Shown one piece after another: positions 9,301 to 63,723 of a stretch of 64,000 bases of DNA. Origin of the DNA: Acridotheres tristis (lineage: Eukaryota; Chordata; Aves; Passeriformes; Sturnidae); NCBI GenBank assembly GCA_037013685.1, contig CM072894.1:17478949-17542948 (forward strand). The letters run 5' to 3'. The translations under genes and the position numbers were made by a program. A model generated the notes under the pieces. That model worked only from the letters and a program-made list of their open reading frames with translations, was not told where the DNA came from and ran no database searches. The first letter of the stretch is position 1. Every line of letters starts with the position of its first letter.

Positions 9301-12300
9301 TTCTCCTTCAAACATGTGCTCCAGGGAAAGTGCTCTCTGATTTTTTTCTTTTTTCAGTAAAACAACTGCTCCGCTGTGGTTCGCTCTTGGGGCACCAGAC
9401 ACAAAAGTCATCTCATCTTGGGAGACAATTCCTTTACCAGAGTCCAAAGAGAAACCTTACACAGAGAAAGAAATACAAATTACCTAAGTAACAGCTTGCA
9501 TCTTAATATGAGAAAATAAACATTTCCCCTGCTATATTAAAGTGGTATATGGAATAAAAGTTTTGTCTAAAGCACAGAGTGCTCTGGCTGGGAATTCTTA
9601 ATTTCTGTTTGCATTGGTGGACACGTATTTGCAAGTCATCACTCCTCCATACATTGCATTTAGTATTTCCCCACAAAACATAGTAATTCATTGCTCACTT
9701 GGACCTGCTTTTCACAGACACCAAATACAGGATGTGTACATCTTAGACACAACTACAGCTTTACCACTTGAATATAGCTTGAGTACTTCACCTCTGGCAA
9801 AATTATCAGAAAACCTCCTAAGTAAAGTCAGTATCATTCTACTGCAAACATGCAAATTATACTGCACCAGCGTTTTCATATGAATGATGTACGCAGTATT
9901 TGAGAATCAGTTTACACAGTAATGGTGAAATGGGCAATTTTAAGTTAATGCAGCCCTAAACATGACATGTCCAAATTAATTTAGTCTTACAATACATTTT
10001 AAAATATGAAAAACCAAGTTAAAAGACTATACTACATATACCAGTAAAGGCCAGTAATATAGCCAATAAAGGCCAAAGTAGAAAACTGCCCACTTTGCAA
10101 GGAAGAAAGATACCAGCCAGCAGATGGGAGTCTCCCTCTGAAACACTTCACCACTACTATGGAAATTCTCAATTACAGCAATTCACAATGAGACAGTTCC
10201 AGAAAAACACCTGAGGGAGTCCCAACTGGGGGAAGGATGAGAAGGTTAGGAGAAATGCATGACAAGTCAGCACTTCTCTGAAGCCTTCTTACTTTTCTCT
10301 CTCCCCCTTATCTGAATCCCTGTTTTTTTCATGCTTTACTTATGATGTATTTGATATGAGAGGGGATAGAGGGGAGAGGATCATGACAAAGGTCTGGAGA
10401 TTATGTCTGACCAAATGCTGCCACCTCAAGTGGTCACAAACCTAAGTAGCTATTCATCATTATATCCACTGACTTGTCCACCTGTATGCTGGGAGGCAAT
10501 GTTTTGTACACAAACTGATCTGGATGAGTATCAGATACAGCTGTCAAAAATAGAAGACCTATAAATATGAGTGAAAGATTGAAGAGAAAAAAATAGCAGT
10601 TAAGCAAAGCACCTATAACCACATGTGCTTACAGTCTAAACAGACAGAACAGTAATGCCTGGGATGAGCTGGCTTGCCTGGAAGTGGTTCTGATTATTAC
10701 AACTCAAGGCAGCATTTACATTTAGAGATAAGTGCATTGGTTATTATGTACAGGAAAAAGTTGATATGACTGTTCACAGCAAAAGGCACCAGCCTCCACA
10801 GCACTCCTCACCTTAGCAATTCTTATTCCACCAGAAGATGCCATCAGCTTGTCTAACATAAGCTCTTAGGATGATTTTTCTAGTTACTTTTACACCCAGT
10901 AATTACTGCTGATATTTAACAGAAGTTTATGTGCTCTTTCTGTAACATATATGTAGCTCTACGTTTGCTCTCTTCTTGACTTGCTTTTTTACTTTTTACG
11001 TAAGCAATGCCCTTCCCATCTATTCAGCTTTCCATCACTCACATAGAAATTCCAGTCTCGGGTTACCAAAACTCTTATTTGTTGCATATGCCAAAAGCAG
11101 TGGATCAACACACCACAGAAATCTGCACTGGAACAGAAGGATTCTTTACACTTAATGCCTTTCCAAAAATGCAGCATAGCCTTTTCAGTGTATGTCACTG
11201 GTGTACAGAAAGAACACTGTACTAAGGACATATTCTTGCTTTCCTGACTGCACAAAGAGTGAGAGATTCACCTCCTGCAACACATACACAAGTATATAAA
11301 CAGTACTTATATTATGGTATTTTAAAGGTCTTTTAAAAGCCATTGGAGTTTTAAAAACTTGATTAATAATAGAATTTCACTTACCTACCAGGAGAGAAAA
11401 TCTGCAGCCTTAATAGTTACATCCAGAAACTGAAATTTTGGTAAACTTTGTGGTACTACATAGCAGAGACTCTGTGACTAAGGACTACAGACACATTCAT
11501 TGTACTGACTTGTCCCATCACAGTGATTATAATCCCTCCCTGAGATTCCGTAGGCCTTCAGCACAGCTCTCGAATCTCACATTACAACAGCAGCTCTTCT
11601 AGGTACCTCAGCAGTATCATCTTACACTTAAAATTGGCCCATCAATTTGGAGGGAGGCTGTGAATTATTCAGAACAGTTAAGGTGTTCAGGGTCCACAAT
11701 GGAACATCTGCTCCCATTTCAGATCATCACACCAGGCTGGGATCACAAATGTTTAAGAGACCTGAAGAGATTTACCACATGTACTTAATCCTACCTAAGT
11801 AACTGTTAGCTGGAACAGGAACTAGATTCTTATCCTGGCGGCTCTCATCACCAACTTCGTAAGGCCCATCATCAAAGATACCCAGATCATAAAATGTCTG
11901 ATTCTTTTGCTCTGCACGAACCACCCCTGAAAAAATGAAATGATAAAATAAAAGCAAATGAATGGTGAGAAAAATAACAAATAAATGTTCCCAACTTATA
12001 TTAATTATGATGAATGACAGTGACTGCTGTTAAAAATGGGACAAACAGAGAATAGTGCATTGGGTTAGTGTTTTGTCTCTGTTCTGTGTGCCAGAAACTC
12101 ATGCTGCTCTACGGAGAAGCCATACAATGATCTGGAAAATACGGGATACTAAGGAAATTCTCAAAAAAAACCCATTGAACCAGTTTGGTCATAAACCACC
12201 CTCATCCTGTATTTCTTAGCCTTATAAAGCTTCTCTTAAAAAGGAGGTAAGTAGACAGGAATTTTTTTTAAAATTACATTTCATTATGACAAACACCAGC

Positions 12301-15300
12301 AATATATTTAGAAATGGTATTTAAGAAGAAAAAAACTATTGTTCAATAAAAGGTGTGCTTCCCTTTTATCAATTGGCATAATTAAGGTTTTGGCAAGCAC
12401 AAACATGTCTTTCCATTATACAGAAGAGTACTCTTAGGACTGTCCTTGCACTTCTCTGCAATTAAAGTAAAATGGTGTCTGCACTCAGTATGCTGTTTCA
12501 GGTCAGTCAGATTTTGTTGACAGATACGTGGAAGATTAAGTTTTCACTAAAGTACACCTTGTGCCAGAGCTTAACACACTGATTTTGCACGGTTCATACA
12601 CCAGGCACAGGTGTACGAGGTGGAAAAACGCAGTGCTTGGAGGATCAGATGTTCTCAAGAGGAAAATATTTACAGCTGTTGGTGTAATGAAGTGTGATGG
12701 GAAAAAATCACTTCAAGAGACTGAACTGGCCATTTAGATGCTTCCGAATATAAAAACTAACAAAGAATATCTAGGGTTTTTTTTTCACTTATGTTTTGGA
12801 ATATCTCCTGGATGACACAGAGTACTTGGCTCTTAGATTATCCATGAAATTTTACACGGACACGCATGGATTTAGATTTGAATATACGTAGCATTGCTGT
12901 TCTCTTCCTGCAATCCTTCGATATTTACTTTGGAAAGTACTGGTTTCCACAAACTTCACAAAGAATAAAGGGGAGAATATTGCAGAATAAACAAAGAGTT
13001 CAGCAGCTATCTAACATTTGCTCAAATGCAGAAAAAAAGGCTGGTTAGGTAACTCATACAAATTCAGTAGTTTGTTCCTGTATGGAAGTGTCCAAGTAAG
13101 CCTTCAATCCTACTGTAAGATTAAAACTAATAAGGGGAAAATTTGCTGTATATACAAGTTCCATTAGCTATTCATATATACACAAAGATATTTAAAGAAA
13201 CTTCAGTAAATGTTAATACAGAAGCATAGCATTTTGTAAAAATAGGGTAAAATCATTACATCCCTATTACCTCCTCTCTCCTTAAAAAAAAAAAAATTAA
13301 AACTTTAGATGTAACCTTTGAGAGCAATCTCAGAGGAAATGGGAAGGGTAGGCAGGAAGGAAGCCAAGTCATACCTTTCCAGTTGTAAGTGCCTGGGGCA
13401 CCAAACACAATATAATGATAGTCTCTAGTAAAAGTAGCAGCAACACCTTGCTGACAGGAACCAAACTTCTCGTGGCCTCTTAAACGACCATCACAAAAAC
13501 TCCATACTCCATTATCCATATCATCCTTAATAGTGAGGTCCTGGCTCAGCACATAGCACCTTCCAATGATATCCCGGGTTTCTTGCACTGTGTTTACATA
13601 CTGCCTTTTCTCATAGCGATGTGCACACGTCTGCAAGACAGAAGAAATAAAGTGTGATGTTTCTGTGTGTTTTACGCAGGTCACCACAAGAGGCAGGGCT
13701 CATCTAGCAGTCACTCCTGCTACCAGTGCTGTAAGTCACCCTGCAGACACTCCTAAGGGCAGAGTCCAGTGTTTCCTACAGGCAACACAGGGCACGGGCT
13801 GGGCACCTACAGATACAAGTCAAAGCAGCCCACTTCATGGTCAGGGAAGGCCACGGGGTTAAATCCCTAAATCCCTTCCTGATACCACATCCCTCTCTTT
13901 CAAGAAGTGAGGAGAAAACCACCCTCCTCTTGAAGAAAGAAGTGGCTGTTTCCCAACAGCTCTCAGAGCTAAAGGACTGACACACCCGTGCAGGACACAA
14001 GAAGCTGATTCAACTACCATCTACCCAAGACTATTGTGAACTTGCCCCTTGCAGAAAAGTTCCACTAAGCCGAGGCTGAAAGCTTTTCCAGTGGAAGGGA
14101 CAGAAGTTGCTCCTACTTCTGCTGTTGGATGTTCCACTTACAGGGTAACTGTCACTGGGGCAGAGCTGTAGCACTAAACACATCCTGTTCCTTATCCTTT
14201 CAGACTATCCCCTGGGAAAAGAATTCTAATCAAATATTTAACACAAAGGATAATTATCCACTGGCTAAGCAGTGTAACCACCAAACCACTGTAAAAAATA
14301 TGAACAACCAAATGCCTTTGGCAGCAGTGTTTCTGAAGAATAACATGTAGCAGGTTTTGCAAAGAGCACAAGCAAGTCAGGTTTCTCAGCTGGCAAACCT
14401 TTTCTGTGGTTCCTATCAAAGCCTAAATGTTACACAAACATCCAGCTGCTCCACACTGGATCACTGCAGTGCTGTCCTGCTGCAGTGACCTCCTGCTCAC
14501 ACCTCATCATTCCCCACTTACCGCTTACAAAGAAAAGACAGGGCAGCATTCGCTAATGACCGATTATTCAGGGAACGGGTCTCTTTCCATGTGCTCCACC
14601 CCACTTTGGGTTCCGAGGCAGACCAAAGCTAGTTATTACCGCCTCTAAATGCTTAAATAACCAGATTCACATCCTGAAGTTGCCTGTCCCCAGGTTTGGA
14701 AGCAGTGACATTAACCTCCAATTAGATGAGGAAGCTTCACTGCACACCTATTTTTTAATGTATCTGGTATCCTGCAGGACTAAGAAAGGTTTATTTAACT
14801 GAGAATTTTAATTTTTAAACTCTTTCAACTCCCAAAAACTTTTTCTCTCTGCTTAAAATAAAATAAAGAATATCTATGTATTGTATAAAATAAAGAATAG
14901 CAAGTAGTCTTACTGCAGTGCAATGACCACATTAATTCACAGGAGCTACTCAGTGCAAGTCCCTGATAAAAGCCAAAGTGAGGCTGATCATCTTGGAAAA
15001 CAGGCTGGTGATAACCTGCTACTTTTACAGCCTTATCCACTATTCTTGCTCATTTCTGCAGCCAGTAATATTTTAAAAAAAAGATGTGTATACCACCAAA
15101 AAAAGTGTACCCCTTGAAAATAAACTGTCCATCCTAGATTGTTACAGAGGTTATAAAGAGAGGCTTACTCATAGAAAAATAATTAAAAGCTCTTACAACC
15201 TCAAATGCCTTATTTTGTTAAGGAGACGTTTACCCACAAGAAGTCAAGGAGTAAACTTAGGCAAGTTACCTTCCAGCAAGCTGCACAGAAACACAGACCA

Positions 15301-18300
15301 TTCAGAACATGTACTGTAGACCCCATATTTTTTGTAAGTTAGTCCTTTAGCACTTACCACCACATTTCCTCCTGGCCCCTGACTTTGGACAGTTACACCC
15401 ATCCATTGGTCTTCTTTACTCTCCATCTTCGGGTCAGCTGCAGAGTATCATAAAACAGCTTCATATATTAACAGTTCACTATGTTTTCTTTTTTCTAGTG
15501 TTTTTGGGGTTTTTTTTTGGTTTTTTTGTTTTTTTTTTAATTGTTGTTTGGTTTTGAGTGGTTTGGGTTTTTTTGATTTTGGTGGTTGTTTTGTTTGGTT
15601 TGTTTTCTGGGGTTTTTTTTGTTTTGTTTTTTGGGTTTTTTGGTGTGTTTTTGTTCGGTTGGTTTTTTGTTTGGTTTGGGTTTTGAGGGTTTTTTTGGTT
15701 GACTGGTTTTGGTTTTTTGTTTGTTTTTTCTTGAAGCCCATGTCAGGAGAGACTCTTCATACAGAACACCAGATAGTCTGCAGGTGGCAGTGTCTGTACA
15801 TTTTATCACTAACAGCATCCATTTTATTAAACTTCTAGCCTATTACTTCATGTTACATCAATTTACAAACCACTAAGAATCTGCCAATATTTAAGTATCT
15901 CATAGAATCTTAGCAATTATGCAACAACTTTCTCTGATGCAAAAAGCAGTTATGCATAAATCACTAGAAGCAACTGTCTGATACACTGCCTCAGGAAAGG
16001 ACATCAAACAAGAAGAATCAGACAACTGTTTCAATTCAAAACAAAAGCATTGAAGAACTTACTCTCCTCGTCAAATCTGACACGTATGCAATTTGTATTT
16101 GGAGATGCAATGTCACAACTGTACAGCCCTCCTGTTCTGTTGGCTTGTTGGGCTGGAAAGGCCTTTTCCCGAGGAGCTCCAACCAGCAACCTGCAGGGAA
16201 AGCAAAATAATTTAAAGAAATATGTAGAAGGAATGTTAGAAAAGAGAAAAGCAACAGAATTGGGAAGCATTTTTACCAAGTTGCTAGAGGTTGGACATGG
16301 CAACGTTTGAAGATGGAGGAAAAGCTACACCACAGCATTGCTCTTTTACAAAGAGAAAAGAGAGGTGAAGGAGAGAAGCTATAGAACAGTAATGCAGACT
16401 ACAATTATTGGACCTGCAAGCCAGTACCTGTACTATTATTACTGTTATTATTGTTGCAGTATTCACTGAGAGCGGTTGATAAAACATGTCTGGCAGTTTC
16501 AGGAAAATCATCTTTTTATCAGGGCATCAAGTGGAGGGTATTTTTTCCCTTAGTAGAAATCACTAATAAGGGTGGAAAAAGTCACTGAAATGACCAGAAT
16601 CCCCCACAACAGTAAATACAATTGTTCTCAGGCTGTCTTCTAGTTTTAGAAGATGCCTATGCCACTGTTTGCCTGAATTTAAAGGCACCTTAGTATCTCT
16701 GACCAAAGCAAGATCCCTCCTGGACCAAGGAAGTGTTCACTGAACTGTTCCAGGCTCTGTGCAAACCTGAACTCCCCCTCTCCATCCTTTGGCAGCTTCA
16801 TTTTGAAGCTGAAAATGGTTTTCTCCAACAAATCTGTCATCAAGAACAGGCCATTCCCACAAAGGACTTACTTCTATTAAACTGCTACTCTAAAAAGCTC
16901 TCCTTAGACACTGTTTTGGTACCAAATGCAAAAGGCTCTTATTTTAAGCACCGAGTAAAGTAAATTTCCTTCTGTATAGACTGTACATCACAAGTATTAT
17001 CACAAAACCACCAGCAGGCATATTTACTTGCAAAATAAGGTGTGTCTGAAAAAAAATCTTACATTGTCTATTTCTTTGTAGTGTCAAACACACAGAAGCA
17101 CAGCTGCCTCTCAGGCAGCTCACTGAAATTAGTAGCAGCCAGTGTGCAGTAGTTTGTGAAAGAAACATCAGGCTCAGCTGAAACACCAAGAATGAGAGAA
17201 CAGTGTGTGGTAAGTGCAACAAAGCAGGTGTGATGGATGGATGGATGGATGGATGGATGGATGGATGGATGGATGGATGGATGGATGGATGGATGCTGAA
17301 CCAGACTGTGCTTCCTGACCCTCAGACATAAAAACGCTTGAAGAGGTATCTCTGACATTACAGTGTCAAGGACAGCAAAGCTGGGACTACAGTTGGACCC
17401 ACAAGGCTCGAAGAGGACCTCAAACATATCCAACTCTAGTTCTGCTGTGTTGGGGCACTGGGTCAAAGCACACTGCTGTCCCTCAGAATGCTATTTTTAC
17501 TAAAGACAAGACTCCCTTTTCTTCATCTCTAACAATGAAGATTGGATCAGTTACGACAATATGTAGTTTTTCTTATTAAGAAAATGTTTATTCACTGTCC
17601 CTAAAGTAACAAGACTCGAAATTGATGTGTTATCAGAAAACATGGGTTTTTTTAAACACAAAATTCAATCTGTACTGCAAAACAACCAAATTTTCACTAC
17701 TTCTATAGGACTAAATCCTCCCACAATCCATAATTTATCCTCCTCATGAAGGTAAGCCTTCTGAATGCTGAAACCTTCAAGTAAAGTATTTGCCTTTGGA
17801 GCATACACAGGACACATGTGGGTGAGGTTTGGTTTAAAAGGTTGTCTGCTTTTCCCTCTGTACATCTGCCATCTTTTTCAGACTTTTTTCAGAAATGTAG
17901 CAGTCATCACAAGAGTTTGTAAACAACTGTGATTTTAGAAAGACCCTCAATAACTGAATTTTATAATTTTGGCAACAGTATATTTAACTGTAATCTCTTA
18001 AGAGTAATTCTTCTGCAAAGTATCTGTTTCTAAGTTCTTCCTTATGGCAGAATAGATACATTTTCTCCTCAGTTCTGTTACTGTCTTTTTTTAACATTAA
18101 CAACCATAAACTTTTAAGAAAGCAGAGGTACTGATTTTCTAACTTACAGAAATTTTTATTACTTCTACTTTTTCATTCAAAGTTTGGGGGCATAAAAAGG
18201 ATGTATTGAAATTAACTTAAAGGAATCAAAAACCTTTTGTTTCAACATTGTGAACAAAACTAAAAGCTTCCCAAATTTAAATACCTATTTTGGTTTAATT

Positions 18301-33300: not shown

Positions 33301-33767
33301 GGGAAGGGCTCCCAGCGGCGGCTTCGCCTGCTTCCCCTTTCTAGCCCCGGCTCTCCACAGGTCCCCGGGGCGCGGGAGCGGCCCCTCGCCCCGCCGCTGC
33401 CCCGGCTCCGCAGCGCCCCGCGGCAGGTGCTGCCCCATCCCTCCGAGGGCCCCGCCGCCGCCCGGCCCCGCTCTCGCCGCCGACCGCACACCGCGCGGGG
33501 GCTGGCGACCCCGGCCCGCCGCCAGGGGAAGTTTCCCTGCGGTGGAAGGTGGGAGGGTACCCGCAGGCGGCCCGGGACGCGGCCGGGCGGGGCGCGGTGC
33601 ACTTACAGCCGCTTCTCCTGAGGCTGCAGCTGCCGGTGCATGGCCAGGGAGAAGCCGAAGAGGCTGCCCGTCTCCCCGCTCCAGCTGATCACATTGTCCG
33701 TGTCCAGGTTGAAGGCGCCGGCCAGCCCCGGCAGGAGGGGCAGGTAGAGGAGGAGCAGGGCCGCCAT
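299..33767 (-). CDS. ITGA6: Integrin alpha-6, 5' portion (17 exons plus alternative X2; gene runs off the left edge)
   Basis: Integrin alpha-6 pairs with beta-1 or beta-4 to form laminin receptors at the cell surface and in hemidesmosomes. Joining the 17 default exons (2315 coding bases) gives an open frame of 771 codons plus two bases. In order it encodes a signal peptide (about residues 1-18), a mature N-terminus beginning Phe-Asn-Leu-Asp, a seven-bladed FG-GAP propeller with three calcium loops (residues about 319-455), the thigh domain and the beginning of the calf region. Full-length alpha-6 is about 1070-1090 residues, so roughly 300 C-terminal residues, including the furin site, membrane span and tail, lie left of position 1. 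Every junction has GT donor and AG acceptor on the minus strand and phases match throughout. Paralogues ITGA3 and ITGA7 share this architecture, but residue-level agreement is with alpha-6. No break or frameshift is seen. Confidence 0.96.
581..664 (-). CDS. ITGA6: ITGA6 exon 16 (calf-1)
   Basis: This 28-codon exon, phase 0 at both ends (residues 718-745), encodes [20 protein letters not shown] and NPFKRNSN. It contains the sequon Asn-Gly-Ser and two conserved cysteines. A second sequon (Asn-Val-Thr) is formed across the junction with the next exon. It is preceded by an 85-base intron, the shortest here. Confidence 0.95.
750..939 (-). CDS. ITGA6: ITGA6 exon 15 (calf-1)
   Basis: The exon has 190 bases, residues 654-717. 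It encodes [40 protein letters not shown] and [20 protein letters not shown], ending Ala-Tyr-Pro. Acceptor TCTGCAG|T, donor CCT|GTAAGT. It is one of the best conserved blocks of alpha-6. Confidence 0.96.
940..1836 (-). other. ITGA6: ITGA6 intron 14
   Basis: AT-rich intron of 897 bases with GT-AG ends. Nothing further is recognised inside it. Confidence 0.85.
1837..1952 (-). CDS. ITGA6: ITGA6 exon 14 (calf-1 start)
   Basis: The exon has 116 bases, residues 616-653 plus two bases. It encodes [20 protein letters not shown] followed by [18 protein letters not shown]. The paired cysteines and FLKEGCG are hallmarks of laminin-binding alpha subunits. Acceptor TTTAG|G, donor CT|GTAAGT. Confidence 0.95.
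1953..2684 (-). other. ITGA6: ITGA6 intron 13
   Basis: Intron of 732 bases with GT-AG ends. No additional exon or repeat is recognised. Confidence 0.85.
2685..2834 (-). CDS. ITGA6: ITGA6 exon 13 (thigh/calf junction, basic cleavage-type motif)
   Basis: Exactly 50 codons (residues 566-615), phase 0 at both ends. It encodes [20 protein letters not shown], then [10 protein letters not shown] and [13 protein letters not shown]. The Lys-Arg-Arg at residues 591-593 sits where human alpha-6 has the basic site cut by urokinase to give the shortened alpha-6p form. Donor AAA|GTAAGC. Confidence 0.94.
2835..3763 (-). other. ITGA6: ITGA6 intron 12
   Basis: Intron of 929 bases. It contains the CR1-like tail at 3132-3202, listed separately. 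The short open frames in it lack splice context and family resemblance. Confidence 0.85.
3132..3202 (+). mobile_element. CR1 LINE 3' tail fragment
   Basis: The run TTGGAATTAGATGATCCTTG followed by AGGTCCCTTTCAACCCAAACC and ATGATTCTATTCTATTC matches the well-known 3' end of avian CR1 elements, including the short ATTCTATG-type terminal repeats. Only the 3' end (about 70 bases) remains, as is usual for 5'-truncated CR1 copies. It lies antisense to ITGA6 in intron 12. Confidence 0.85.
3764..3921 (-). CDS. ITGA6: ITGA6 exon 12 (thigh)
   Basis: The exon has 158 bases, residues 513-565. It encodes [20 protein letters not shown] with the sequon Asn-Tyr-Thr, a less conserved middle ([15 protein letters not shown]) and a cysteine-containing end [11 protein letters not shown]. 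The acceptor ACATAG|A is followed by AA-ATC, and the donor is CAG|GTAAGG. The middle differs from mammals but the frame is intact. Confidence 0.93.
3922..5169 (-). other. ITGA6: ITGA6 intron 11
   Basis: Intron of 1248 bases with GT-AG ends. Open frames on both strands at about 4220-4550 overlap one another and show no splice-compatible or family signal. Confidence 0.85.
5170..5231 (-). CDS. ITGA6: ITGA6 exon 11 (thigh)
   Basis: This small exon of 62 bases (residues 492-512 plus one base) encodes [20 protein letters not shown]. The conserved cysteine and YTANP motif are typical of the alpha-6 thigh domain. Acceptor TTTACAG|G, donor A|GTAAGT. Confidence 0.93.
5232..5689 (-). other. ITGA6: ITGA6 intron 10
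   Basis: Intron of 458 bases. Nothing further is recognised. Confidence 0.85.
5690..5785 (-). CDS. ITGA6: ITGA6 exon 10 (end of propeller, start of thigh)
   Basis: Ninety-six bases, residues 460-491 plus two bases. It begins with the conserved SRPVISI link from propeller to thigh, then a sequon Asn-Ile-Thr in [13 protein letters not shown], and ends with a charged, low-conservation stretch ([11 protein letters not shown]). Donor AG|GTGAGC. Confidence 0.92.
5786..7496 (-). other. ITGA6: ITGA6 intron 9
   Basis: Intron of 1711 bases. Small open frames near 6200-7390 have no recognisable product. Confidence 0.85.
7497..7624 (-). CDS. ITGA6: ITGA6 exon 9 (last propeller blade, third calcium loop)
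   Basis: The exon has 128 bases, residues 418-459 plus two bases. It encodes [18 protein letters not shown], the third cation loop DLDKNSYPD (DxDxNxYxD form) and [13 protein letters not shown]. The ILDGEKT start is the bird-like variant of this segment as I recall it. Acceptor TTTTTAG|A, donor AG|GTATTA. Confidence 0.94.
7625..8379 (-). other. ITGA6: ITGA6 intron 8
   Basis: Intron of 755 bases, AT-rich. Nothing further is recognised. Confidence 0.85.
8380..8468 (-). CDS. ITGA6: ITGA6 exon 8 (propeller)
   Basis: Eighty-nine bases, residues 388-417. It starts with the Asp that closes the previous calcium loop, then [19 protein letters not shown] and [10 protein letters not shown]. It is separated from exon 7 by a short 131-base intron. 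Donor CAG|GTAATG, phase 0. Confidence 0.95.
8600..8793 (-). CDS. ITGA6: ITGA6 exon 7 (propeller, calcium loops)
   Basis: The exon has 194 bases, residues 323-387 plus one base, acceptor TCTAAG|C and donor G|GTAAAT. It completes the first calcium loop (WQD), carries [20 protein letters not shown], the sequon Asn-Gly-Thr, and [19 protein letters not shown], the second DxNxDGxxD loop, whose last Asp falls in the next exon. The acceptor has a weaker pyrimidine tract than its neighbours. Confidence 0.95.
8794..9244 (-). other. ITGA6: ITGA6 intron between exons 6 and 7
   Basis: Intron of 451 bases with an A-run (plus strand) near 8808-8822, close to the exon 7 acceptor. On the transcript this run is the U-rich tract upstream of the acceptor. 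Confidence 0.85.
9245..9455 (-). CDS. ITGA6: ITGA6 exon 6 (propeller, blade 4-5)
   Basis: The exon has 211 bases, residues 253-322 plus two bases. It encodes [20 protein letters not shown], the FG-GAP core GAPRANHSG (with the sequon Asn-His-Ser), [23 protein letters not shown] and the first half of a calcium loop, which is completed as DLNSDGWQD by the next exon. The donor is GG|GTATGG. It is the common downstream partner of X1 and X2. Confidence 0.95.
9456..10441 (-). other. ITGA6: ITGA6 intron between X2 and exon 6
   Basis: Intron of 986 bases starting at the weak X2 donor GTTTGT. It holds one GCATG motif on the transcript strand (10330-10334), about 110 bases downstream of X2. No further exon is seen. 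Confidence 0.8.
10442..10558 (-). CDS. ITGA6: ITGA6 alternative exon X2
   Basis: Between X1 and the next constitutive exon lies a second open cassette with consensus splice edges (acceptor TTTATAG|GTC, donor TTAG|GTTTGT). It is 117 bases, 39 codons, phase 1 in and out, exactly interchangeable with X1. It encodes [20 protein letters not shown] and ends DIMMNSYL. This resembles the X2 exon of ITGA7 (GLLF start, PDQ-VYKT core, NSYL end) and the rare X2 of mammalian ITGA6. The X1 sequon is missing. The pyrimidine-rich acceptor looks functional, and the GTTTGT donor is weak, as expected of a regulated exon. Whether it is used in this species needs transcripts. Confidence 0.9.
10559..11794 (-). other. 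ITGA6: ITGA6 intron between X1 and X2
   Basis: Intron of 1236 bases whose 3' end is a long pyrimidine-rich tract leading to the X2 acceptor. An open frame at 10989-11255 shows no splice edges or family resemblance. Confidence 0.8.
11795..11926 (-). CDS. ITGA6: ITGA6 exon 5 (X1, default variant exon)
   Basis: This 132-base exon (44 codons, phase 1 in and out) encodes the X1 form of the propeller insert. It starts Gly-Val-Val-Arg-Ala-Glu-Gln-Lys, holds the sequon Asn-Gln-Thr and an acidic run around [11 protein letters not shown], and ends [10 protein letters not shown]. The acceptor TTTTTTCAG has a good polypyrimidine tract and the donor is G|GTAGGA. In mammals X1 is the predominant alpha-6 form. 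The following exon starts GT-TTC and completes a Gly codon from either X1 or X2. Confidence 0.95.
11927..13374 (-). other. ITGA6: ITGA6 intron 4
   Basis: Intron of 1448 bases ending in a strong U-rich acceptor for X1. Nothing further is recognised. Confidence 0.85.
13375..13630 (-). CDS. ITGA6: ITGA6 exon 4 (propeller; common exon before the X1/X2 choice)
   Basis: The exon has 256 bases, residues 124-208 plus one base. It begins [13 protein letters not shown] after acceptor TTGCAG and includes the [20 protein letters not shown] stretch and the FG-GAP motif [12 protein letters not shown]. It ends with a single G left over at donor G|GTATGA. That phase (1) is what both downstream alternative exons require. 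The cysteines match alpha-6 disulphides. Confidence 0.96.
13631..15357 (-). other. ITGA6: ITGA6 intron 3
   Basis: Intron of 1727 bases, with slightly GC-richer sequence at about 13690-13860. The overlapping open frames on both strands there show no coding signal. Confidence 0.85.
15358..15437 (-). CDS. ITGA6: ITGA6 exon 3 (propeller)
   Basis: Eighty bases, residues 97-123, between acceptor CTGCAG|CT and donor GTG|GTAAGT. It encodes [18 protein letters not shown] and then GPGGNVV, a signature of blade 2 in alpha-6. The incoming A completes a Thr codon and the exon ends in phase 0. An unusual GT-rich (transcript: AC-rich) tract ends about 60 bases upstream of its acceptor. Confidence 0.95.
15438..16062 (-). 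other. ITGA6: ITGA6 intron 2
   Basis: Intron of 625 bases. More than a third of it is the GT-rich low-complexity tract at 15498-15730. Confidence 0.85.
15498..15730. repeat. GT-rich low-complexity tract in intron 2
   Basis: About 230 bases built almost only from G and T on the plus strand, as irregular TTTG/TTTGG/GGTTTT units with very few A or C. The transcript strand is therefore A/C-rich. It is not a clean microsatellite. It ends about 60 bases before the exon 3 acceptor and produces long spurious Lys/Gln/Asn/Pro/Thr-rich open frames. Confidence 0.9.
16063..16190 (-). CDS. ITGA6: ITGA6 exon 2 (propeller)
   Basis: Acceptor CTGCAG|G and donor A|GTAAGT bound 128 bases encoding residues 54-96 plus one base. 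The peptide contains LLVGAPRE (the FG-GAP core GAP), the N-glycosylation sequon Asn-Arg-Thr, and the cysteine-bearing LYSCDI segment, all conserved in alpha-6. It follows the 17.4 kb intron 1. Confidence 0.95.
17232..17295. repeat. (GATG)n tetranucleotide microsatellite
   Basis: Sixteen uninterrupted copies of GATG (equivalently ATGG; CATC on the transcript strand). It is a likely length-polymorphic short tandem repeat in intron 1, 0.9-1.1 kb upstream in the gene of exon 2. Confidence 0.97.
24290..24660. other. GC-rich patch inside intron 1
   Basis: About 370 bases clearly richer in G+C and CpG than the surrounding AT-rich intron, with open frames of 73-99 codons on both strands that are composition artefacts. 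It could be an intronic enhancer, an alternative promoter or first exon, or an old insertion. Nothing in it matches a known protein. Confidence 0.5.
26213..26232. repeat. Perfect 20-base palindrome in AT-rich repeat cluster
   Basis: TTAAAGACTTAAGTCTTTAA is its own reverse complement. Around it (26207-26270) the unit AAAACTTAAA recurs three times, suggesting local duplication and inversion. Confidence 0.8.
29970..30034 (+). mobile_element. CR1 LINE 3' tail fragment
   Basis: The stretch TTGACCTTAAGGATCTTTTC then CAACCCAAGCGATTCTAAGA and CTAAGATTCTATG resembles the 3' terminus of a diverged CR1 with its short terminal repeats. Only the tail is left, in intron 1, antisense to the gene. Confidence 0.75.
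30165..30300. repeat. AT-rich low-complexity stretch
   Basis: Imperfect TATA/ACATA-type repeats (CTCTATATATTC, ACTACATATATAGT, AATATATTTATAACATATAG) with almost no G+C. It has no other visible function. Confidence 0.7.
33607..33767 (-). CDS. ITGA6: ITGA6 exon 1 (start codon, signal peptide, propeller start)
   Basis: The ATG is the complement of CAT at 33765-33767. It begins Met-Ala-Ala followed by a leucine-rich core typical of a signal peptide, with likely cleavage after Gly-Leu-Ala-Gly-Ala (residue 18), giving the mature N-terminus FNLDTDN common to alpha-6. The exon continues through [10 protein letters not shown], the first FG-GAP strand, to QPQEKRL. The donor reads CT|GTAAGT and leaves two bases of a leucine codon. 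The start context is CAG-ATG-G, with C at -3 and G at +4, so it is not an optimal Kozak site. The codons just before it (Gln-Glu-Gln) contain no in-frame ATG. The exon lies in a CpG island. Confidence 0.95.
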
Positions 33768-60938: not shown

Positions 60939-63630
60939 CAGGGGAACAGGTTTGATTATTGTAGGAGGTTGATTCTTACAGGTAATTTTCTTGAAGGTAC
61001 TAGAAAAATAGAACATCAAACTCCCCAAAATCATTTTCTGCTGAAACACTTCTATCCTAGCTGATTACTGAAATGCTGCTTCCCTTCCCCCAAACCCACA
61101 ATCCTTTCTCAGCTCATGAGGACTCTATTTGCAATTCTACACAAAAGGATTAATTGTTTCAAGTTTTCTGTTTTCCTCTTTCCAAACAGCGTCAGTCATA
61201 TCTCTTTTGAGTGACCTCAACAGCATTTAACTCAACACTCTAGCCACCTATTTTTTCAGGATGGGGAGGAGGATGTGGGGAGGGAGGTTAGGAAGGAGAA
61301 GGAAAGAACCGAGCAATTTCATTTGACATCAGTAGAAAAATCAGAATAGTAAAAATATGCATTAATTTTAAACGCTGTTTTTGTAGCCCTGCATCTCTGA
61401 ACCAACCAAGCATTTTCTGCACTTTAACCTCTAGATACAGCACCTCAGGAAAGCATGCATTAAGTAAGCTAGAAAACAACAAATTTTAACAGTTACCCTT
61501 CAATGTTTACCAGTGCTATATTCTGTGATCTCAGACAAACCATTTGTACTTCAGCCTTCTTAACTGTAAAACAGGCAAAATGCATGCTAAAGCATCCTAG
61601 AACATTTTAAAAGTTTTGAAATTGAAAGCGACTTTGAAAAGATTGGCTCTAATACCAACTATTATTTTCATAGAATACCGACTGCACTGCTCATGGAAAA
61701 AATATCCTGACTGCATAATCACTTTCAGAACAGTGGCTTCTGTATATGTGCTAGAGGAGTTTCAAAGGAAATGTCATATTTTTAAAGTATGTGTTCTACT
61801 ACCATATTTAATAGAAAGTCATCCCTGGTCTTTTGGTGCCATGAGTCTTTGGAGCCTTAGTATAAAAGCATTAGGTTTTGTACTAGGTTATAATCACTCT
61901 GCAGGAGCTGTCGGGATTTATCACATCAAAAATCCATGCACAAAAAAAAAAAAAGGAGTGGTTGTCCAAAGAGGGCTTGGTACTTTAGAGACATTAGAAT
62001 CTATTTCGTTAATAACACCTATTTGTGCACTTGGTCTTGGTGGCTCAGTGTGATTATATTCAAGTATTGCCCATTCTCTCTAAGAGGCTTTTGTTGTGGC
62101 ACTTCAAGGGCAGATCCTCGAACAACAACAGTAAGTGTTCAGGAGCAGCCAAATTAGAGAGGCTCAGGTGCTAGAAGCCCCATCAAACCCCAAAGCCACT
62201 GTGAGGATTTACTCACAGTGCATCAACGTCTAGTTGAATATTTTGTGCACAATCTGATTCAGTACCAAGTTGAGAACATCAAATCATGTAGTGTCCAAGG
62301 CTTGGAAGAACTGTTAACTGAAAACAGGGTTTTCCAATTTGAGGCTGTCAGAACTGAGGATGCAGTTCACAGGGATGAGGCCACATGCAAAGGTGTTTAC
62401 ATGCGAGGAACCAGCAGAGCTTAGTAATTCTTCTTTGTGAACATTTATCAGGACAAGATCTTTCTCAATGACTTTCCAGTACCCGATTTGAAATCTACAC
62501 AGCGTTGCTTTAAAAAAGAATAAAGATATATCCTTTAATGTGGTCTATACAATTTCTTTTAGATGCCAAGACATATAGGTTCTTGAGTGATAAATTATTT
62601 TCTTGAGGAAACAATCCTTTAGTGAAAAACTTGTGTGATTGTTTCTTTAAAAGAGAAAGCTTCTGTTTTACAAAAGGCTTTAGGCTCAGCAGTCTTTCAG
62701 TAGGAATTTATATATATAGAAGGAAAACTCAAAACAAAACAACTCACCCAACAGTCATAAAGAACAGCAAGGTTTCTGCCCTTTGAAACTACAAGAATTA
62801 CTAAATACAACATCATTATATGAGTTGTATGCAGAACTGCAATCCTACTAAGTGCATCAATAGCAGACTGTCAGCACACTACTGAAAATATTTCAAAACA
62901 AATTAAAGTATTGGTAAATCACATTCAACTTCCATTGCCACATACACATTTGCCTTGAAGTTAGAGACCCAGAAACAAGGAGCTTTACAAAAAAAAGGTA
63001 TTAAACTAAGAAGGTTAAGTGAAGAACACATAAATAAAGGCAATGTCCTGAAACAGCTGAAGCATAAAAAGCAAAAGACCAAAAAAGGCTGGTTTTAAGG
63101 ACACTTCAAAACTGTTGAAGTCCATCTAAAGCAGCAAAAGATGGATGGATTTCTGGGGGAGCAAAGGAACAGAAATCACACATTTCAATTGAGCTGTTTC
63201 AAACTAAGGGCATTGTAGGTTTTTCTAAGCTGTCTTAGACTACAGAACTCAGTCATATTGAACCCATAGAAAATCCATGTTGTCATGTTACAATACTGGT
63301 TTTCTATGCTGTTGTGTATGTTGCCATTACCATTAGCAAAAATTCATCAAACCAAGACAAGGGCTTTGTTGCAAAGAAGATACATTGCTGTGAGAAATAA
63401 AAGATGTTCTGTTGAGGACTGATCTTCCATGACATGCATGCATGGCAGATCAGAATATTACAAGTTAGCAAGAGAGAGAGAAAGACACAGTCAAGCACTG
63501 GTCTTTCCTTGGGGTAGTTGCAAACAAGAGGTGACATATTAATCCACCTGAAAGTCAAGTGAGATTTTTACCATTGATTTCATGGAAATAGGACCTTGGT
63601 TTCTTAGAAGTAATAATATCTTCTCTGTCA

Positions 63631-63723
63631 GAAGAGAAGAGAAGAGAAGAGAAGAGAAGAGAAGAGAAGAGAAGAGAAGAGAAGAGAAGAGAAGAGAAGA
63701 GAAGAGAAGAGAAGAGAAGAGAA
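63631..63723. repeat. (GAAGA)n pentanucleotide microsatellite
   Basis: About eighteen uninterrupted GAAGA units, a purine-only array, probably highly length-polymorphic. Confidence 0.97.

Follow-up and report, generated by a model that had tools for sequence, protein, structure and literature searches.

The 117-nt segment at positions 10558-10442 (minus strand) of the window, i.e. of the whole 64,000-nt stretch of DNA analysed here, is an in-frame, phase 1-1 cassette of the integrin alpha-6 gene (ITGA6). It is the bird orthologue of exon X2, a known alternative exon of this gene. Most probably it is rarely included, being skipped by default, joined to exon X1 when included, and used to tune the receptor.

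Position and frame of the cassette

A human ITGA6 bait served to locate the exons of ITGA6, whose boundaries were then adjusted according to GT/AG edges and reading frame; exons 14 and 15 and the ends of the model were set by eye. The gene is encoded on the minus strand, with the coding start at 33767 (coding part of exon 1, 33607-33767), and exits the window beyond exon 19 (143-66). The gene model is supported by later comparison with database proteins, since its spliced product of 836 residues is 97.2% identical to an ITGA6 protein of Taeniopygia and 96.9% identical to one of Chamaea, values that point to a passerine as the probable source. Exon X1 (11926-11795, minus strand; 132 nt, phase 1-1) matches integrin alpha-6 in the PDB (7ceb_A, E 2e-15). 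Repeats in the window include a degenerate G/T-rich array (15500-15729; A/C-rich on the gene strand) in the second intron of ITGA6, some 60 nt before the acceptor of exon 3, and two perfect microsatellites, AGAAG (18.8 copies, 63630-63723) and GATG (16 copies, 17232-17295).

The initial annotation had described a 39-codon cassette with AG and GT edges in the right phase, whose peptide starts with GLLF, has the core DQFVYKT and ends with MMNSYL; all of these features are present. The cassette is flanked by X1 and by exon 7 (9455-9245, minus strand), the constitutive exon that follows. Its length is a multiple of three and its edges are canonical, with the 3' splice site TCTTTCACTCATATTTATAG at 10559-10578 (AG at 10560-10559) and the 5' splice site GTTTGT at 10436-10441. 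The X2 peptide comprises 40 residues, of which the first and last G are common to the neighbouring exons. The joins from 13375, the end of exon 4 (13375-13630, minus strand; donor GTATGA), or from 11795, the end of X1, to 10558, as well as the join from 10442 to 9455, are all frame-preserving, and each of the four combinations (X1X2, X1, X2 and neither) is free of stops when the 19 modelled exons of the window are translated. X1 and X2 each have phase 1-1 and a length divisible by three, so that X2 could either join X1 or replace it with the frame intact.

Orthology to the X2 exon of ITGA6

A search of 5.8 billion proteins with the 40 residues of X2 alone returned 50 matches at E <= 10 among 51 candidates, the best with E 2.9e-16. 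All but one of these (49 of 50) were named integrin alpha-6 or ITA6; the remaining one (P0027) is called a 'hypothetical protein' and its second name begins 'Integrin al'. The matches comprised 15 bird proteins from 11 species, five turtle proteins, one lizard protein and 29 mammal proteins. Identity over the 40 residues ranged from 98% (Chamaea) to 65% (Suricata), bird matches being 80-98% identical over the region and the human isoform Alpha-6X2A 73%. The X2 peptide was present in all 50 matches, together with X1 in 18 and without X1 in 32; since X2 was the query, X1-only forms do not enter these figures. The listed proteins are representatives of 90%-identity clusters and many are predicted models, and therefore show annotation, not expression.

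This similarity exceeds chance and thereby establishes orthology of the X2 peptide to the annotated X2 of ITGA6. Position, frame and sequence confirm the window exon as the bird orthologue of X2; the initial annotation had already named it X2 of integrin alpha-6. In contrast, the designation of the exon as unlisted is untrue in general: public databases contain X2-bearing ITGA6 proteins from many mammals and from no fewer than 11 species of birds, so that X2 is an already known exon, found here in a further species. The warning that annotation can miss X2 was justified, as illustrated by the case of rhesus macaque described in PMC12564407. Among the papers listed by literature searches, none dealt with bird X2 of ITGA6, and searching PDB sequences with X2 alone, at E <= 1 and then at E <= 10, gave no match.

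The X2 paralogue in ITGA7

When the same genome (1.04 Gb, 85 contigs) was searched with X2, two candidates were scored (scoring being confined to the best ones) and both matched at E <= 10, namely the window exon itself and a segment of another contig (C33:1543642-1543764). This second segment is the X2 exon of ITGA7; in that gene, whose 20 modelled exons are collinear with those of ITGA6, X1 (132 nt) is likewise followed by X2 (120 nt) in phase 1-1. Two matches in the genome, ITGA6 and ITGA7, were also reported for X1. Searching proteins with ITGA7 X2 gave 14 matches at E <= 10 among 45 candidates, of which 13 bear the name integrin alpha-7 or alpha-7-like; the other is an 'Integrin alpha-2 domain-containing protein'. 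The resemblance to ITGA7 X2 that had been noticed initially amounts to 18 identical residues of 41 within this genome, and peptide comparison identifies the X2 exons of ITGA6 and ITGA7 as paralogues. The assignment of the window exon as the orthologue of ITGA7 X2 was rejected: ITGA7 possesses its own X2 on contig C33, and the identity of the window exon to ITGA6 X2 (65-98%) is higher than that to ITGA7 X2.

As for the origin of X1 and X2 from one another, a profile comparison (hhalign) aligned only 12 C-terminal columns around NSYLG, with probability 33.8 and E 0.00043 for a single comparison. On the strength of such an alignment we do not claim a tandem duplication, while noting that ITGA6 has been counted among tandem-duplicated-exon events (PMC9741552).

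Repeats were also noticed at the ITGA7 locus (L002). A tandem array (G000:C33:1542142 onward) in the intron preceding X1 repeats the last part of exon 4 together with the donor (GTHSWKG/GTGAGG); its units measure about 90 bp, with 3.5 copies at L002 1-312 and a further copy at about 351-449. The units also hold an acceptor-like TTGCAG and could serve as decoy splice sites. Furthermore, an 11-bp minisatellite of 97.5 copies (L002 1630-2701) starts just past the X2 donor, 8 nt beyond the last base of the exon.

Joint or exclusive use of X1 and X2

The region encoded by X1 belongs to blade III of the propeller, where it contributes strand IIId (DGPYEVG) and long mobile loops at the contact with laminin LG2; D211, E215 and E219 of this region are described as essential (PMC8241838). 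DGPYEVG and the acidic residue two positions further on are retained in the window X1 and absent from X2. X1 has eight acidic residues and a net charge of -4, X2 four and a net charge of -2. From this comparison, a protein carrying X1X2 would retain the contact made by X1, followed by 39 additional residues, whereas an X2-only protein would lose this contact.

The alternative that survives best is that birds use X2 mainly in place of X1, as in ITGA7, which would yield an X2-only alpha-6 without the acidic segment needed for laminin-511 and with a preference for other laminins. X1 and X2 of ITGA7 are indeed described as mutually exclusive and as differing in laminin preference (PMC8860092, PMC12564407), X2 has no DGPYEVG segment, and databases list X2-only models of ITGA6 from Corvus, Numenius, Pogoniulus, Apus and Athene. 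However, we could see no sequence feature that would enforce exclusion: the X1-X2 intron of ITGA6 measures 1236 nt and double inclusion is in frame. X1X2 forms moreover make up 18 of the 50 listed proteins, including those of Chamaea, Oxylabes, Taeniopygia, Athene, Nipponia, Acanthisitta and Tinamus, and one report states that alpha-6 has no X2 variant except a minor X1X2 form (PMC8241838). We consider use of X2 mainly in place of X1 unlikely.

Under the preferred reading, i.e. joint inclusion, the 39 residues of X2 would form an additional flexible segment of lower acidity, placed directly after the X1 segment (strand IIId of blade III) and beside the contact with laminin LG2. Such a segment might tune receptor assembly or laminin engagement without an outright switch of ligand. 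The initial annotation had held that the choice between X1 and X2 alters a propeller loop and, in alpha-7, the preference for laminin isoforms. The altered preference stands for alpha-7; for alpha-6, X1 and X1X2 forms are reported to show no difference in ligand specificity (PMC5930856, PMC12564407); a need for co-expression of beta-4 is also cited (PMC12564407). Since the alpha-6 X1 and X1X2 forms are reported to be alike in this respect, we infer a role of X1X2 in tuning or assembly in preference to a ligand switch. AlphaFold2 models of the X2-only ITGA6 of Corvus and the X1X2 ITGA6 of Taeniopygia (20-sequence alignments) were too poor to place X2, with mean pLDDT of 61.0 and 48.8, respectively. 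Confidence in the propeller was low in both, and the strands at 210-215 and 223-227 of the X2-only model, with local pLDDT near 50, were disregarded.

Splice sites and proposed default skipping

When splice sites were ranked by position weights, the X2 donor (TAG/GTTTGT) scored lowest of the 19 ITGA6 donors, and the X2 acceptor was middling, 10th lowest of 18. By the same weights, the acceptor of X1 is good (14th lowest of 18) and its donor ranks 6th lowest. A T at position +3 occurs in one of 19 donors in ITGA6 and one of 19 in ITGA7, and both times the donor is that of X2 (GTTTGT in the window and GTTCGT at G000:C33:1543763-1543768). In human, the X2 donors of ITGA6 and ITGA7 are given equal scores (HSF 85.11, MaxEnt 4.07; PMC12564407), which would fit a common donor sequence. 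The same source gives the two X2 splice sites of human ITGA6 lower scores than the X1 sites, most notably at the acceptor; it reports X2 levels close to zero in GTEx and describes X1X2 as the known minor form (PMC12564407).

Such a poor 5' splice site would be expected to cause skipping by default, leaving most of the message X1-only, and X2 would be included where a cell-specific factor assists. Scans of the window for the QKI motif ACTAAY and for the RBFOX motif TGCATG found 54 sites against 78.07 expected by shuffling and 56 sites against 50.28, respectively, neither result being notable. Given these counts, no weight was attached to an ACTAAC (12069-12064) located 138 nt upstream of X1 or to a TGCATG (9854-9849) located 588 nt downstream of X2.

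It can be speculated that the X2 donors of both genes (GTTYGT, with T at +3) have been kept since the gene split as a built-in brake, making X2 dependent on a cell-specific activator. In birds, certain tissues would then make an alpha-6 that carries X2 and differs in its choice of laminin or beta subunit, and the two genes would possess one ancient shared switch, not two separate ones. We regard this extension as rather doubtful.

Conservation of X2

Conservation was compared across 11 proteins, codons being assigned by their first base. X2 is identical to its counterpart at 28 of 39 positions in Macaca fascicularis (X1, 30 of 44; whole model, 72.3%), at 31 of 39 in the turtle Terrapene (X1, 38 of 44; whole model, 81.4%) and at 31 of 39 in Tinamus (X1, 41 of 44; whole model, 88.6%). 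It was conserved less than X1 in nine of the 11 comparisons and less than the whole model also in nine, mostly by a few per cent. Among 64 X2 peptides (from 50 ITGA6 and 14 ITGA7 proteins), 49 comprise 40 residues, 14 comprise 41 and one comprises 39. Judging from these alignments, X2 is kept nearly, if not quite, as well as the rest of ITGA6.

X2 might nevertheless be a relic, an ancient exon still recognisable and devoid of a role in present-day birds. This would agree with its lowest-scoring donor, with the near-zero expression described for human X2 (PMC12564407) and with the slight deficit in identity noted above. On the other hand, the frame is open, the edges are intact, identity to macaque X2 is close to that of the whole model, and the length has been kept. 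Near-equal identity and kept length together favour continued constraint, and we consider a relic very unlikely.

Open cassettes as such are frequent at this locus. The 2339-nt interval 11794-9456 contains 70 open phase 1-1 AG...GT cassettes of 20-69 codons (a count that takes in X2 itself and four other cassettes with its donor), 13 of which have at least 39 codons; the 1448-nt control interval between exon 4 and X1 contains 11, one of them of at least 39 codons. Edges and openness alone therefore prove little, and similarity decides: the reading of X2 as an accidental open frame that happens to have AG and GT at its ends, for which its place among these 70 cassettes might speak, is refuted by the annotated X2-bearing proteins that the 40 residues match, and its probability is practically nil.

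Significance and comparison with known systems

Thus, a songbird has an intact copy of a rarely used exon that has been described in human and whose annotation in mammals is inconsistent. Because of this, the neglect of X2 is more likely a matter of annotation and expression than of loss. The exact X2 junctions are now available for mining of bird RNA data, and the weak donor common to both X2 exons offers a small, testable idea on default X2 repression. Otherwise, the finding belongs to routine gene annotation.

The closest known counterparts are the ITGA6 X2 of human (isoforms Alpha-6X2A and Alpha-6X2B, UniProt P23229) and of the bird models of Chamaea, Taeniopygia, Corvus and Athene, among others, which share gene, position and phase with the window exon. 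With respect to the 29 listed mammal ITGA6 proteins, 25-35% of the 40 residues differ. Furthermore, in human ITGA6 X2 it is the acceptor that is stressed as weak (PMC12564407), whereas in the window X2 it is the donor that scores lowest. X2 of ITGA7 resembles the window X2 in the order X1-X2, in phase 1-1, in length (120 vs 117 nt) and in the T at position +3 of the donor (GTTCGT and GTTTGT). The two genes differ in the X1-X2 intron, which measures 116 nt in ITGA7 and 1236 nt in ITGA6, and human ITGA7 X2 is described as strongly and tissue-specifically used, unlike ITGA6 X2 (PMC12564407).
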